The position numbers and the translations under genes were made by a program. This document shows positions 57,275-64,000 of a DNA stretch of 64,000 bases, piece by piece (the stretch's first letter is position 1; each line of letters opens with the position of its first letter). The stretch comes from Natrinema caseinilyticum (GTDB lineage: Archaea > Halobacteriota > Halobacteria > Halobacteriales > Natrialbaceae), in the NCBI RefSeq assembly GCF_024227435.1, contig NZ_CP100445.1, positions 1,299,369 to 1,363,368 on the forward strand, written 5' to 3'. The notes beneath the pieces are model-generated. The model was not told where the DNA came from and did not search any database. It worked only from the letters and a program-made list of their open reading frames with translations.

Positions 57275-57982
57275 TCAAAGATAGAACGTCGAGAGTCCGA
57301 GCGCGAGTGCGAAGAGGAGAACGGGATAGTCGATTCGCGAGAAGGCAAGCGGCGGGAGCGTCGGGTTCCAGGCGAAACACCGCGCCTGCAGCGCGAGCGA
57401 GAGTCGATCCGCTCGGTCGAACGCGCGGGTGAGGCCGAGGACGCCGATCGCGCTGGCACGGTCGACCGCGCTTCGTTCGGTTCCCAGCCGAGCGGCCATC
57501 GCCTCGCGAATCGTCCGGAGGTCGCCCCGAAGCACGGGCAGAAAGCGGAATACGAGTCCGACGCCGACGCCGAGAAGCTGGCCCGGCTTTCCGGGAACCG
57601 TCCGCTGAATCGCGGCTCGAGATTCCCGCACCGGCGTCGACCGGACGTAGGCGGCGCTGACGAGCAGGATCAGCAACACGCGGTAGCTCGCCAGCCCCGA
57701 AGTGACAGCGGCTGAACGATCGAACCAGGGCGAACCGAGCGTGACGCCCGCGAGCAGCGGCGCGATCACGAGAACGACCAGCGCGAACCGGTACGCGGAG
57801 ACGGTCCGTCGGATCGGAACCCCCGCCGCGGCCATCGCGACCGCCGTCAAACCCGAAAATGCGACGAGCGCGCGCGGGGTCGTGTGCGACAGCGCGGTGG
57901 CGGCGAATCCGATCTGGACCGCCAGCTTGGTCCGCGGATCGAGCCGGTGGGCGACGGTATCGTCGGGTTCGTACGTCAGCAT
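57275..57982 (-). CDS. ECF transporter membrane component (EcfT/BioN)
   Basis: This 235-residue protein starts MLTYEPDDTVAHRLDPRTKL, typical of EcfT, and has five or so membrane helices with the coupling-helix motifs in ERSAVDRASAIGVLGLTRAF and LALQARCFAWNP (ARx-like). It links the biotin-binding protein BioY to the ATPase. The start overlaps the ecfA stop, so they are translated together. Confidence 0.9.
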   Translation of the reverse strand: MLTYEPDDTVAHRLDPRTKLAVQIGFAATALSHTTPRALVAFSGLTAVAMAAAGVPIRRTVSAYRFALVVLVIAPLLAGVTLGSPWFDRSAAVTSGLASYRVLLILLVSAAYVRSTPVRESRAAIQRTVPGKPGQLLGVGVGLVFRFLPVLRGDLRTIREAMAARLGTERSAVDRASAIGVLGLTRAFDRADRLSLALQARCFAWNPTLPPLAFSRIDYPVLLFALALGLSTFYL

Positions 57983-58689
57983 CGTGTGGCGTCCGGCACT
58001 CGTACCTCGAGGCCCTCGAGTTCACCCAGTACCGGTTCCGGCGGCCCGTTTACGGCGATCCGACCGTCTCGCATGGCGATCACGCGGTCGGCGAGCACGG
58101 AGACGTCCCGCAGATCGTGGGTGGCGAGGAGTATCCCTGTCCCGTCCCGTGACAGCGACTCGAGCCGATCGAGGACCGACTGCCGAGCGGGGTCGTCCAA
58201 CCCGGTAAACGGTTCGTCGAGGACGAGATGGGAGGGTTCCATCGCGAGCGCACCGGCGATCGCCACGCGAGACTGCTCGCCACCCGAGAGCGAGTCGATC
58301 CGGGCGTTCTCTCGACCGGCCAGGTTCACGGCGTCGAGCGCGGCCGTCACGCGGCGGTCGATCTCCCCGCGATCGAGGCCGAGATTCTCGGGGCCGAACG
58401 CGACGTCCGCGCCGACGGTCGCCGAGACGAACTGGTCGCGAGGATGCTGGAAGACCATGCCGACGCTCGAGCGGGCGGCGATCAGGTCCTCCGCAACGGG
58501 CGTTCCGTCGACCAGAACCTCGCCGGAGTCGGGTTCCAGGAGGCCGTTGCAGTGTCGCAACAGCGTCGTCTTCCCGCTGCCGTTTGCCCCCGCCAGGAGG
58601 ACGAACTCGCCGTCGTCGATCGTCAGCGAGACGTCCTCGAGAACCGGGACGTCCTCGAACGCGTACGAGACGGACTGGAATTCGATCAT
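57976..58689 (-). CDS. ECF transporter ATPase (EcfA/BioM)
   Basis: This 237-residue ABC ATPase has Walker A AGANGSGKTTL, the Q-loop VFQHPRDQFVS, signature LSGGEQSRVAIAGALAM, Walker B LVLDEPFTGLD and H-switch ATHDL. The QHPRDQ pattern is characteristic of ECF-type ATPases. A single ATPase gene implies a homodimer. It is 25 bases after bioY, which is on the same strand. Confidence 0.94.
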   Translation of the reverse strand: MIEFQSVSYAFEDVPVLEDVSLTIDDGEFVLLAGANGSGKTTLLRHCNGLLEPDSGEVLVDGTPVAEDLIAARSSVGMVFQHPRDQFVSATVGADVAFGPENLGLDRGEIDRRVTAALDAVNLAGRENARIDSLSGGEQSRVAIAGALAMEPSHLVLDEPFTGLDDPARQSVLDRLESLSRDGTGILLATHDLRDVSVLADRVIAMRDGRIAVNGPPEPVLGELEGLEVRVPDATRC

Positions 58690-58714
58690 TCGTGCCGGAT
58701 GCGACGAGCGTTCC

Positions 58715-59299
58715 TCATGCGGTCGTGATACGGCCTGCCTCGACGATGGCGACCGCGGCTGCGATCTTGACGAGGTCGCCCGGGACGAACGGGACGACGC
58801 CGAGTTCGACCGCTTTGACCGCACTGAGTTCGAGAACGTAGCCGAGCCAGGCGGCCCCGAGCAGATAGATGACGGCCAGTGCCGCAAGCAGCGTCACGAC
58901 GAGGACCGGCCTCGATAGATCGGCGGGATCGCCGAATTCGCTCCGCCAGTGAACGACGGCGCCGACCAGCAGGGCGGCGATCGGATACGACCAGAGGTAG
59001 CCCGCACTGTCGCCGACGAGGACGCCGATCCCCGCAGCGCCAGTGGCGAAGACGGGAAGCCCGACCGCGCCTGCAGTCAGATACAGCAGGACCGAGAATG
59101 GCCCCCAGTACGGGCCGAGGTACAGTCCCGCGAGATAGACGACGAGCACCTGCAGCGTCACCGGCACCGGCGAGAGCGGGATCGGGATCGATCCGACGAA
59201 CGCGGCCGCCCCCAGCAGCGCTGCGAGGACGGCCGCTCGAGCGAACGGCCTGATAACGTCGTCATCGACGAGTTCGACCGAATTCTGATCGGTTTCCAT
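58715..59299 (-). CDS. bioY: Biotin transporter S component BioY
   Basis: This 194-residue protein has six membrane segments and the BioY signature IPIPLSPVPVTLQVLVVYLA followed by GLYLGPYWGPFSVLLYLTAG and GDSAGYLWSYPIAA. It captures biotin and, with the EcfA and EcfT proteins encoded just downstream, imports it. The group is a complete biotin ECF transporter operon in the order bioY-ecfA-ecfT. Confidence 0.95.
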   Translation of the reverse strand: METDQNSVELVDDDVIRPFARAAVLAALLGAAAFVGSIPIPLSPVPVTLQVLVVYLAGLYLGPYWGPFSVLLYLTAGAVGLPVFATGAAGIGVLVGDSAGYLWSYPIAALLVGAVVHWRSEFGDPADLSRPVLVVTLLAALAVIYLLGAAWLGYVLELSAVKAVELGVVPFVPGDLVKIAAAVAIVEAGRITTA

Positions 59300-59773
59300 A
59301 CTCCCGTTCGTTCGTAAACCGGGATCAAAACTTCGGTTTCCGAGACGGAACAGAAGTTCGGAACGGCTCCGAAACAGAAGGCTTCCTTCCAGTTACGCTG
59401 ACGGTTTCGGTCGGCGATTCTCGTATCGAAATGCACGACACTCACCGGTCAGACTGTCATCTGTCCGGGTTTCGCAGTCGCTCGGGAAGAGTAATAGCCT
59501 ATTGTCTCGTTTCGCTAACCGTAACGGACAGCGGTCTTATCAGCTCGTTCACCACCGTGGAGGGAAAATGCGAACCGGAAATACGCGGGCTGACAGTCCG
59601 GGGTATCGCGGCGCACCGGCGGGGGCGAAATGGCGAGACGACGAGACGAACCCTGGTCGGGCCGGGCGAGACGGCCGGTCGACGTCGGGCCGTGCGGCCC
59701 AGCATCCGATCGAAGCGGGAGCCGTAGCGCAAGCCGCCGAGCGAAATCGTACGGAACGGAGACGCGTCGACCG
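59300..59773. other. Intergenic upstream of giant surface protein
   Basis: This 474-base gap separates bioY from the large surface protein. It holds arginine-rich shadow frames only. An open frame from 59502 ends in an overlap with the surface protein ATG, but its basic composition argues against coding. It probably holds the promoters of both divergent genes. Confidence 0.45.
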
Positions 59774-62700
59774 ATGAGACGACGATCCGTCGGAGCAATC
59801 GTGCTGATCGTCTCCGCAGTGGTCGGAAGCGCCGTCGTACTACCGATCCTCGCCGGCGGGGCCGGACCGTTCACCGATGCTGACGACGGAATCGAGAGGA
59901 GAACCGACGGATCGACGGCCGCGCTCGAGGCGGCCGTCGCCCAGGACGACGCGCAACCGACCAACTGGTCCGAATTCGAGCCGGTGACGGTCGATCGACC
60001 GGCAGCAACACCCGGCGCCGACGGGCGGGCGGCGGTCCAGGGTGAGCGCGAGGACGCCGTCGAAGCGGGCGTCGAGGAGGGGATCGAACTCGTGCAGTCC
60101 CAGGGAGTCACCGTGACGCAGGAACAGCGGGCAGCGGCCCTCGAGGGCGCTCGGACAGCTGTGTCCCAAAATCAGACTGCGGCAGTCGAACAGGTCCAGG
60201 CGGCGACGGCCGGAGCCGTCCACGGCGCGTTGATCCAGACGCAATCGGCGAACGTGAGCCAGCTTCAGGCCGCGGTGGCCGGCGCGACCGGCGGGGGGCT
60301 CTCCCAGTCCCAGTCGGCGAACGCGACCCAACTTCAGAGTGCGACCTGGGGCGCAGCACACGGGGCGATCGCCCAGAGTCAGAACGTCTCCGTCGAACAG
60401 ATCCAGGTCGCGAGCAGCGGGGCGGCCGCGGGTGCCGCGAGCGAGGCGGGCGCGAAAGACGTCGGCGCCGTCCCGAAGATTCAGGAAGCCGCCCAGGGAT
60501 CGGCGTACGGCGCCCTGACCCAGTACCAGACGATCACGGTCGAACAGCGCCAGCGGGTGACGCTCGAGCACGTCCAACACGCCGCCGCGGGAGCGGCCGC
60601 CGGCGCGCTCGAGGGGAGTACGCGCGCCGGGTTCGAGCAGGCCCAGCGGATCCAGGTGCGACAGGAACAGCGCCTCGACGTCGAGCAGCGCCAGCGGGTG
60701 ACGATCAAGCAGATCCAAAAAGCCGCCGCCGGTGCGGCGACGGGTGCACTCGTTCAGGAACAGTCGGTTTCGGTCGAGCAGACCCAGGCCGCGGCCCGCG
60801 GCGCGAGCCGCGGATCGCTGACGCAGGTTCAGTTCGTTCGCATCGAGCAGAGACAGCGGATTTCGATCACGCAGGTACAGCAGGCGTCCTTCGGCGCGGC
60901 GACGGGCGCGATTTCACAGAGTCAGGACGCGACCGTCGAGCAGATCCAGGCCGCCGCGACGGGGAGCGCAGGCGGCGTGCTCGTACAGCGCCAGGAGATT
61001 TCGATCACGCAGATCCAGTACGCTGCGATCGGTGCCGCAGACGGCGCGATCTCGTCCGCGATTCAGCGCCAATCGGTATCCGTCGAGCAGGTTCAGGCCG
61101 CCGCGTTCGGCGCCGGCGAGGGAGCGGTGAGCCAGACGCAACTCGTCGAAATAACGCAGGTCCAGCGCCTCGCGAGCGGCGCCGCGAGCGGTGCGCTCTC
61201 CCAGGCCCAGGGGGCGTCGGTCACGCAGGTTCAGACCGCGGCGCGAGTCGCCTGCCAGGAGACGGCCACCGTCGTCCAGTCACAGCGGATCAGCATCACG
61301 CAACTGCAGCGCCTGACCGAGGAGGCCGCGTCGGAGGCGATCGCCCTCGCAGTTCGGGACGAAACCGACGACGTGACGGTGATCTCACAGCGCGTCGAGG
61401 TCACCGTCGTCCAGCGACTCGAGACGATCGATCGGCTCGAGGGGACGGCGACGGTCGACGTCCCCGACCAGACGACCGACGGGGAGCGCGTTACCGTCGA
61501 AGAGGTGTCCCTCTCAGAGGGCGGCTACGTGGCCGTCTACGATGGAATCGCCGTCGATACCGACCCGGAGGACGTCCTCGGCGTCTCGGGCTCCCTCGAA
61601 CCCGGGTCGCACGAGAACGTCACGATCGAACTCGACGACCCGCTCGAGGAGAGCGGGGCGGTCGTCGCGGTCGCACACCACGAGACGACCGGCGACGAAA
61701 CGTTCGGGTACGTCGAATCCGATGGCGAGGCGGATCCGCCGTACGTCACCGGCGCCGGCGCGCCGGTTCTCGACGGCGCGTTCGTGACGATCACGGACGA
61801 ACCCGGCGAACCCGCTGCGACGCTGTCCGTGACCGATCAGACCGGCAACGGCTCGACGCTGACGGTCGACGAGGCGAACGCGTCCGTTCCCTACACCGTG
61901 ACTGCGACGGTCGACGGCGAAACGGTCGGAAACGAGTCGTTCGGGGCCGGTGAATCGGTGACAAATCTCTCGCTCGACCTCGAGCCACCGCTCGAGGGGA
62001 ACGCGACCGTGGACGTCGCGGTCCTCGACGAGGATGGGGCGACGCTCGCGAACGAAACGATCAGCTACACCGTCGTAAACGAGACTGGCCCGGACGGTCC
62101 CGAGGGGTCGATCTCGGTCGACGACCAGACTGGCGACGGCGAAACGCTCGAAATCGACGCGGCGAGCGCGTCCGTTCCCTACGTCATCGCCGCCAGGTAC
62201 GGCGGCGAACGCGTCGACAGCGAGCAATTCGAAGCGAACACGACGGTCACCGACGAGACCCTCGAGTTGGACCCGCCGCTCGAGGAGAACGCGACCGTGG
62301 GCGTCTCAGTTCGGGCCGTAACGGACGACGCAATACTGGCGAACGAGTCGGTCGAATACGGGATCGTCCGACCGGATCCGGACCGACCGACGGCGAACCT
62401 TTCGGTCGCGGACCAGACGGGAGACGGGCGGACGCTCACCGTCACTCAGGCGAACGCGTCCGTCGAGTACGCGATCACCGTGACCGACCAAAACGGCACG
62501 CAGCGCCTGGCGAGCGACTCGTTCAGGCCCAACGAGACGATCGGTCCCCGGGAGTTTTCACTCGAGCCGCCGCTCGAGGAGAACGCGACGCTCGAGGTGG
62601 CGGTCGTCGACGTGGAGAACGATTCCGTGCTGGAACGGAACACCGTCGAGTACACGGTCGATGGAACGCTCGAGGGGTTCGAGGTCGAGTTTGCGAGCTG

Positions 62701-64000
62701 TTCGCGAGCGGAAGTCACCGCGTCCCTCGAGGCGGGCGACCAGGTGGCCGCGAGCACGGGCTTTTACACGACCGCCGGATTCGGGAACACGATCCTGGAC
62801 GACCTGATCACCGTCGGGGAAGACGTCCCGGCGCCCTTCGACGGAACGATCGTCTTCGAAATCGGTGACGAACGCCGCGTCACGACCGATGGCGATCGTG
62901 TTTCGGTCACCGTACCGGACTACGGCACCTTCGGCACCTACATCTCCGGAATCAGCTCGCCGGAAGCGGCGCCCGTCGGTGGGATAGATTACCCGAATCC
63001 GTCGGCAACGTGTCGAGACGAGGTTCGGCCGGAGTTGCCCTCGATCTCCGTCGTCGAAACGGCCCCCAGCGAAGACGGAAACGCCATCGATGTGACGTTC
63101 GGCTACGAGAACCCGAACGACGCGCCGGTGGCTGCGAACAGCGCTTTCGTCGAGGGAACGACGAGCGACCGACCGCCGAGCGAACTCGAGCCGGGTCGGC
63201 AGACGTTCACCGTCGAGTGGACGCCGGAACGCGACGACGAGCGCCTCGTCTGGCGGGTCGACCTCTCGAACTTCGACTACGACGAGCCGCTGACTGCGAC
63301 GACGCCACCGGCGGGCGAACTCGAGCCGTCGGAGCCGGCTTCGTTCGGCGTCTCGATTGCGGGGACGAACAGTCCGGTCGAACGGGGTGACCCCATCGCG
63401 GTCGAGGCCATCGTCGAGAACGTCGGCGGGCGGGCGGGCACCCAGAACGTCTCGATCGCCGTCGGCGGTACCACCGGTGAGGCCGCCACGGTGTCGCTCG
63501 AGTCCGGTGAGACCCGGTCGGTGACGCTGAATTACGAGACGGCGGACCTCGATCCCGGTGAGTACCCGGTCGAAATCGCGACGGCGAACGAGACGGCGGA
63601 GACGACGGTCGCCGTCGAGCCGAGTGGCGACCCGGCCGCGTTCGCGATCACCGACGTATCAGCGCCCGAGACGGGCCGGGCCGGAGCGGCGGTGACGGTT
63701 GCGGTGACGATTCGGAACCAGGGCGACCGCGAGGGGACGCAGACGGTAACCTACTCCATCGACGGGCGGCAGGCTGCGGAGGCGTCGGTAACGCTTGCGG
63801 GGGGACAGGCGACGACCCTTTCGTTTACGCCGACACTCCCGACTGGAACCTCGACGCACACGATCGCGACCGAGGACGATCAGGAATCGGTGACGATCGA
63901 GGCGACCGAACCGGCGTCGGACGAGGAAACCGAGCCGGCGGGTCAATCCGCACCTGAGCGCCCGGAACCGCCGGAGCCGCCCGAACAACCCACCGCACCG
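59774..64000 (+). CDS. Giant repetitive surface protein, C-terminus cut off
   Basis: The frame is open for 1,409 codons to the window edge. It begins MRRRSVGAIVLIVSAVVGSA, a signal peptide or anchor. Residues about 138-555 are a tandem array of about 23-residue units of the form VEQIQAAAxGAAxGALxQSQ. A DUF7282-like domain follows (near 575-680: GGYVAVYDG, SHENVTIELDDPL), then three or so modules with PPLEENATV, and CARDB-like modules (AFAITDVSAPETGRAGAAVT) after 1,190. The last residues seen are Pro/Glu-rich, as in wall-spanning stalks. It is likely an adhesin or surface layer-associated protein. Confidence 0.85.
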   Translation, partial: MRRRSVGAIVLIVSAVVGSAVVLPILAGGAGPFTDADDGIERRTDGSTAALEAAVAQDDAQPTNWSEFEPVTVDRPAATPGADGRAAVQGEREDAVEAGVEEGIELVQSQGVTVTQEQRAAALEGARTAVSQNQTAAVEQVQAATAGAVHGALIQTQSANVSQLQAAVAGATGGGLSQSQSANATQLQSATWGAAHGAIAQSQNVSVEQIQVASSGAAAGAASEAGAKDVGAVPKIQEAAQGSAYGALTQYQTITVEQRQRVTLEHVQHAAAGAAAGALEGSTRAGFEQAQRIQVRQEQRLDVEQRQRVTIKQIQKAAAGAATGALVQEQSVSVEQTQAAARGASRGSLTQVQFVRIEQRQRISITQVQQASFGAATGAISQSQDATVEQIQAAATGSAGGVLVQRQEISITQIQYAAIGAADGAISSAIQRQSVSVEQVQAAAFGAGEGAVSQTQLVEITQVQRLASGAASGALSQAQGASVTQVQTAARVACQETATVVQSQRISITQLQRLTEEAASEAIALAVRDETDDVTVISQRVEVTVVQRLETIDRLEGTATVDVPDQTTDGERVTVEEVSLSEGGYVAVYDGIAVDTDPEDVLGVSGSLEPGSHENVTIELDDPLEESGAVVAVAHHETTGDETFGYVESDGEADPPYVTGAGAPVLDGAFVTITDEPGEPAATLSVTDQTGNGSTLTVDEANASVPYTVTATVDGETVGNESFGAGESVTNLSLDLEPPLEGNATVDVAVLDEDGATLANETISYTVVNETGPDGPEGSISVDDQTGDGETLEIDAASASVPYVIAARYGGERVDSEQFEANTTVTDETLELDPPLEENATVGVSVRAVTDDAILANESVEYGIVRPDPDRPTANLSVADQTGDGRTLTVTQANASVEYAITVTDQNGTQRLASDSFRPNETIGPREFSLEPPLEENATLEVAVVDVENDSVLERNTVEYTVDGTLEGFEVEFASCSRAEVTASLEAGDQVAASTGFYTTAGFGNTILDDLITVGEDVPAPFDGTIVFEIGDERRVTTDGDRVSVTVPDYGTFGTYISGISSPEAAPVGGIDYPNPSATCRDEVRPELPSISVVETAPSEDGNAIDVTFGYENPNDAPVAANSAFVEGTTSDRPPSELEPGRQTFTVEWTPERDDERLVWRVDLSNFDYDEPLTATTPPAGELEPSEPASFGVSIAGTNSPVERGDPIAVEAIVENVGGRAGTQNVSIAVGGTTGEAATVSLESGETRSVTLNYETADLDPGEYPVEIATANETAETTVAVEPSGDPAAFAITDVSAPETGRAGAAVTVAVTIRNQGDREGTQTVTYSIDGRQAAEASVTLAGGQATTLSFTPTLPTGTSTHTIATEDDQESVTIEATEPASDEETEPAGQSAPERPEPPEPPEQPTAP

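Follow-up and report, generated by a model that had tools for sequence, protein, structure and literature searches.

A haloarchaeal surface-protein domain of 23-residue Gln- and Gly/Ala-rich repeats with a predicted α-solenoid fold

We put at about two in three the probability that the gene running off the end of the window (the whole stretch of 64,000 nucleotides analyzed here) codes for a protein that is secreted or sits at the cell surface and whose N-terminal repeat domain, ~460 residues long, folds into an α-helical solenoid of fixed length. The repeats most likely stack as alternating antiparallel helices rather than as strands. They constitute a new repeat family, which we infer to be of a known structural kind, the α-solenoid.

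Gene, modules and repeat unit

The reading frame is open from two in-frame ATG codons (59630 and 59774) to the window end, and its stop lies at window-equivalent position 64207. We preferred the ATG at 59774 because a hydrophobic signal or transmembrane segment follows directly (MRRRSVGAIVLIVSAVVGSAVVLPILAGG), which is predicted to act as a signal peptide or as an N-terminal membrane anchor; the ATG at 59630 is a possible alternative start. The full product of 1477 residues is large, but not the giant protein of the initial annotation. The host genome has 4.77 Mb, and its nearest named relatives are Natrinema. In the protein, the hydrophobic N terminus is followed by a short acidic linker, the repeat domain, a DUF7282 domain, three DUF7282-like modules, a Cys-containing module, CARDB modules and a Pro/Glu-rich tail (Table 1). 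The repeats had been taken as the building plan of the entire segment 59774-64000; the array is real, but it is confined to residues ~93-556 (about positions 60050-61441). The DUF7282- and CARDB-like modules that had been placed behind it were recovered above the Pfam gathering scores, with 116.3 bits against a cutoff of 27 for DUF7282 (E 9.8e-34) and 30.1 bits against 22.7 for CARDB (E 6e-7). The boundaries of the DUF7282-like modules are uncertain, as Pfam gives just two DUF7282 stretches where three modules are seen by eye.

Table 1. Features of the repeat protein; positions are those of the window.
Feature	Residues	Position	Strand	Basis
CDS	1-1477 (full product)	59774..64000 in window, plus 207 bases past window end	+	
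N-terminal hydrophobic segment	1-30	59774..59863	+	sequence reading
Repeat-domain N-cap, degenerate helical units	93-131	60050..60166	+	AlphaFold helices; conserved in orthologues
14 repeat units of 23 residues	132-499	60167..61270	+	profile and autocorrelation
8-residue insert QYQTITVE ahead of unit 6		60521..60544	+	
Tandem pair of 8-residue inserts QAQRIQVR-QEQRLDVE ahead of unit 7		60638..60685	+	
8-residue insert QVQFVRIE ahead of unit 9		60824..60847	+	
Repeat-domain C-cap	500-556	61271..61441	+	conserved in orthologues; sequence reading
DUF7282 (PF23951)	559-672	61448..61789	+	Pfam match; strands in AlphaFold model
Three DUF7282-like β modules, each starting SVxDQTGxGxTL	~684-960	61823..62653	+	by eye
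CARDB (PF07705), better of two stretches	1292-1373	63647..63892	+	Pfam match
Pro/Glu/Asp/Gly-rich tail	~1378-1477	63905..64000, ends 64207	+	sequence

The consensus of the 23-residue unit is QxQx[VA][STND]VxQ[IV]QxAAxGAxxGA[LI]x, numbered Q1, Q3, [VA]5, [STND]6, V7, Q9, [IV]10, Q11, A13, A14, G16, A17, G20, A21 and [LI]22. The period is real and goes beyond mere composition: the autocorrelation of Gln reaches 0.48 at lag 23 and 0.43 at lag 8 (shuffle maximum 0.22) and that of Gly 0.31 at lags 4 and 23 (shuffle maximum 0.23), the null being the highest value at any lag from 2 to 59 among 1000 shuffled sequences. A profile of positions 9-22 locates 14 clear units starting at residues 132, 155, 178, 201, 227, 258, 305, 328, 359, 382, 405, 431, 454 and 477, at spacings of 23, 23, 23, 26, 31, 47, 23, 31, 23, 23, 26, 23 and 23. 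Degenerate cap units flank them on both sides, in good agreement with the "about fifteen" units originally counted. At three sites, the array carries 8-residue inserts of the form QxQx[VI]x[VI]x, and the block ahead of unit 7 differs in length among orthologues, often by 8 residues. Tandem Repeats Finder detected no array over the repeats at the DNA level, because the units are too diverged.

We collected 712 distinct units by their score on positions 12-23 only. Gly is found in 99% of them at positions 16 and 20, both part of the scoring profile, and Gln in 82-94% at positions 1, 3, 9 and 11, which the score did not use. Among strict units, position 6 is Ser, Thr, Asn or Asp in 89% and position 8 Asp, Glu, Ser or Thr in 79%, with hydrophobic residues at positions 5 and 10. 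Such a combination (Ser/Thr/Asn/Asp at 6, an acidic residue or Ser/Thr at 8, hydrophobic residues at 5 and 10) is the usual helix N-cap and hydrophobic-staple pattern. Pro occurs at positions 7-8 in 48 of the 712 units, with the count at position 8 dominated by one Natrialbaceae unit, and never at positions 9-20. In some units, LDAKGDRT, LERDGKPE or TDDDADPK stands in place of positions 1-8, and degenerate units such as DADPKKVQDGAIGGAKGAL retain the helix half alone, having lost the Gln half.

Structure predictions, covariation and alternative folds

Structure prediction of the units, suggested as a check along with the initial annotation, gave two different answers. A first AlphaFold job (27 sequences) returned an all-α model with one 17-residue helix per 23 residues over the first ~150 residues (pLDDT ~70-89). 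Its N-cap, with helices at model residues 2-26 and 33-48, reached a pLDDT of 81-89, values over the middle units fell below 50, and the DUF7282 part was drawn as strands. A second job yielded an all-β model with a pLDDT of 38, which is unusable and was rejected as evidence for β structure. Because the two jobs disagree, we tested the fold by covariation.

We ran a mean-field coupling analysis on 1175 distinct pairs of adjacent units. The units are related by duplication, and the effective sequence number is modest, at about 70-700 according to the weighting. Within a unit, couplings at i+4 (mean z 1.38) and i+3 (mean z 0.62) dominate over positions 7-23. Neighboring units are coupled in an antiparallel fashion (21-14', 13-20', 18-13', 20-16', 17-21'; position sums 31-38), and next-neighbors in parallel and in register (16-16', 19-19', 17-17'; in-register mean z 0.80). 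Coupling is close to zero at unit distances 3 and 4, and a weak antiparallel signal is seen at distances 2 and 3 as well. The antiparallel band at distance 1, which was chosen after the couplings had been seen, was matched by none of 1000 position permutations at any of three weightings, in a test that maximizes over bands. At distance 2, the in-register signal gives p<=0.002 against permuted positions. Distant families by themselves show the same pattern, and so do Natrialbaceae by themselves, at fewer effective sequences. Covariation thus offers an indirect view of the features expected of an α-solenoid: an i+3/i+4 helical pattern, antiparallel neighbors and parallel next-neighbors. Together with the N-cap residues at position 6 and the absence of Pro from positions 9-20, it indicates a two-layer helix-turn-helix solenoid. 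The helix packing of GxxxG type that had been proposed from the outset agrees with the neighbor-unit covariation, which centers on positions 13-21.

The initial annotation had read the V-E-Q-x-Q segment as a strand. Spelled out as a fold, this would be a leucine-rich-repeat-like α/β solenoid, in which QxQxVxVxQxQ forms a strand with Gln/Val ladders and AAxGAxxGAL a helix opposite. We consider this unlikely. The strand reading did have some basis, as variability in the orthologue entropies alternates over positions 1-11 (180-degree power, p 0.017). Positions 12-23 follow 100 degrees, a helical periodicity that is not significant on its own. The 8-residue inserts, rich in β-branched residues and strand-like in appearance, preserve the alternation. 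Against an α/β solenoid, coupling between adjacent units over positions 7-23 is antiparallel rather than in register (in-register z 0.05; Gln-1 and Gln-3 are too conserved to give a coupling signal), the N-cap statistics set the helix start at position 7, and strands are absent from the confident part of the repeat domain in the first AlphaFold model. The i+4 coupling and the Pro-free stretch likewise speak against a strand, and the replacement of positions 1-8 in some units, as well as the retention of the helix half alone in degenerate ones, makes a strand-plus-helix unit probably wrong.

The curlin repeats of CsgA have a 22-23-residue period with a conserved Gln, and a curli-like β-solenoid or functional amyloid would place one coil per 23-residue unit, with Gln ladders and the capacity to form fibres. 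The period and the Gln spacing resemble those of curlin repeats, and the second AlphaFold model is all-β; yet at a pLDDT of 38 that model carries little weight. Moreover, neither curlin nor any other amyloid repeat was matched in Pfam at E<=10, the motif spacing differs from the curlin consensus, the A/G pattern at positions 12-23 does not alternate, and covariation is helical. We thus regard a curli-like fold as quite improbable.

Conservation, genomic context and relatives

The repeat domain occurs once in this genome and also once in nearly all of 28 other sampled genomes of the genus. When 391 sampled Halobacteria genomes were searched with profile A2, 110 of them, belonging to 36 of the 86 genera, gave a match, and in a separate draw of 393 genomes of the phylum matches were confined to the window's own order; the scan across all species was run with one protein and stringent peptide seeds. 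In Natrialbaceae the domain is single-copy, and in the loci of this family with enough flanking sequence the gene is syntenic, with divergent BioY-EcfA-EcfT genes upstream, and a conserved small gene (dn0, MSDEVKTT...) follows downstream wherever the contig extends far enough. Distant families at 44-55% identity have the spacing pattern 23,23,23,26 ... 26,23,23 in common, including the +3 steps that follow unit 4 and recur near unit 11, and we therefore regard the array as an old domain of fixed size rather than as a repeat of variable copy number. A few lineages carry more or fewer units. Judged from these sequence comparisons, the domain is neither a one-off nor a recent expansion.

The repeat domain is the most constrained portion of the protein, with dN/dS values of 0.14-0.26 compared to 0.25-0.48 for DUF7282 and 0.17-0.49 for the C-terminal modules, and with a column conservation of 74-86% across the array. 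That constraint, the unit spacing conserved across families and the structured covariation leave a low-complexity, largely disordered Gln/Ala-rich linker without a specific fold as the least probable reading, even though AlphaFold confidence is low across the middle of the array.

In homologues elsewhere, the N-terminal repeat domain is fused to TSP3 repeats and a CAP domain, to a right-handed β-helix, to several DUF7282 domains or to Thr-rich stalks, and several of these proteins end in a C-terminal transmembrane segment with an Arg tail. A Tat-type signal is present in one short Natronorubrum-type paralogue (L112) from another Natrialbaceae genome. The Tat-type signal and the transmembrane/Arg tails together indicate secretion or surface display, and with its hydrophobic N terminus the window protein, too, looks secreted, as had been supposed. 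Read to its stop, the 1477-residue protein lacks a C-terminal transmembrane segment, and its retention at the surface would have to be achieved without a C-terminal anchor. No relatives were found among the viral contigs and phages searched, so that on this evidence it is not a phage or virus protein. A plasmid search returned two partial matches, both labeled 'hypothetical protein', the sole name under which the domain appears in the annotated plasmid records checked.

No described domain with this pattern had been known to the initial annotation, and our searches bear this out: no Pfam family above cutoff covers the repeats in the query protein or its homologues, NCBIfam gave no match for them, and sequence searches of the PDB, run with the protein as well as profiles A1 and A2, returned no relevant match. 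This includes the named α-solenoid families (TPR, HEAT, ankyrin and others) in both Pfam and NCBIfam. The nearest approach, Gly-zipper_YMGG (PF13441), scored 19.8 bits against a cutoff of 28.9 (E 0.00064) and was matched by 1 of 18 homologues even at E<=10. Glycine-zipper families have small-xxx-small helix faces in common with our repeats, but in contrast to their membrane hairpins, the helices of our repeats form an array, are 17 residues long and contain Gln as well as charged residues. Among the structural matches listed for the first AlphaFold model, the best include 8ugc (Z 8.6) and 5cwg (Z 6.5); the matches have an rmsd >7 Å and do not rise above the background for helical repeats. The designed flat repeat FD15 (8ugc) and the DHR α-solenoids likewise consist of tandem antiparallel helices in two layers, but our unit comprises one helix in every 23 residues and has near-invariant Gln as well as GxxxG. 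Haloarchaeal DUF7282/CARDB surface proteins share the downstream modules of the window protein, and a second secreted DUF7282-like protein in the same genome (at 919 kb) is without the repeat domain. We found nothing in the literature on DUF7282 or on glutamine-rich repeats in haloarchaea, and none of the titles and abstracts seen describes the Q/GA repeat.

Proposed architecture and implications

In the α-solenoid that we favor, each unit would contribute one ~17-residue helix (positions 7-23) and a six-residue Gln loop, QxQxV[S/T]. Successive helices would run antiparallel and switch between two layers, such that unit i packs on i+1 in antiparallel and on i+2 in parallel orientation, with the Gly/Ala face (positions 13, 14, 16, 17, 20 and 21) permitting close helix packing. 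Because neighbors are antiparallel, with contacts centered near a position sum of 34, Gln-9 and Gln-11 of one helix would come to lie beside loop Gln-1 and Gln-3 following the next helix, possibly forming hydrogen-bonded Gln tracks along both solenoid edges. Such tracks and a Gly/Ala core may generate a tight, polar-held solenoid that does not rely on salt bridges and is suited to molar salt.

Most probably, the domain serves as a rigid scaffold or a surface for binding, located at or close to the envelope, from which the variable C-terminal modules (DUF7282 and CARDB here; TSP3, CAP, β-helix or Thr-rich stalks elsewhere) would reach other partners. The adhesive stalk or fibre proposed initially is a hypothesis that seems less likely for the repeat domain alone, since ~16 helices in two layers would span roughly 6-8 nm; a compact scaffold or binding domain probably fits better. 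More tentatively, and at somewhat less than even odds, the repeats may represent an undescribed, ancient extracellular α-solenoid family of haloarchaea that adapted to molar salt by Gly/Ala packing and Gln tracks and that performs a conserved surface function, such as docking to the S-layer or to a secreted partner, in much of the class.

On this model, a stretch of alternating Q and V may look like a strand and yet form a loop and the start of a helix. The domain is conserved in more than a quarter of the sampled Halobacteria genomes, yet neither Pfam nor NCBIfam contains it. If the solenoid model is true, the domain would be a new helical repeat of natural origin, whose simple 23-residue grammar could be used to design repeat proteins for high salt, and it would mark an unstudied layer of cell-surface biology in haloarchaea.

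Genes flanking the repeat-protein gene

Judged from their sequences, EcfT, EcfA and BioY probably form a biotin-type ECF transporter set, which lies divergently and immediately upstream of the repeat-protein gene. Their arrangement is constant across the Natrialbaceae loci fetched for comparison. The small gene immediately 3' of the repeat-protein gene shares 73-96% identity across Natrialbaceae in the fetched loci.

Features near the repeat-protein gene and in related loci
Feature	Position	Strand	Remark
EcfT, EcfA, BioY	window 57275-59299	minus	named by sequence reading
Small conserved gene	L004 (beyond the window end):4882-5949; ~64.3-65.4 kb in window terms	minus	96 aa from MSDEVKTTTF
Shorter paralogue of repeat protein	L112:2215-3729		other Natrialbaceae genome
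Second secreted DUF7282-like protein	L005 (same genome as window):1794-3470; genome C1 ~918.8-920.5 kb		

Related proteins and domain fusions

The shorter paralogue, encoded in another Natrialbaceae genome on a different contig from that genome's main copy, carries a Tat-type signal peptide and a Gly/Asn/Asp-rich tail. In Halorarius and a relative (loci L060 and L111), the fusion partners of the repeat domain are TSP3 repeats plus a CAP-type domain, and both proteins end in a C-terminal transmembrane segment with an Arg tail. The CAP-type domain corresponds to CAP (Pfam) in L060 and to a YkwD-type domain (NCBIfam, score below cutoff) in L111. The second DUF7282-like protein contains many acidic tandem repeats of the NVTDEEPVDEED type, each with an N-glycosylation sequon.

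Sequons in the repeat units

Across the 438 units from all loci, N-x-S/T sequons are mainly found at unit positions 4 (24 of 62) and 6 (32 of 62), an excess that is only slight when compared with column expectation. These two main sequon sites would fall in the predicted loops.
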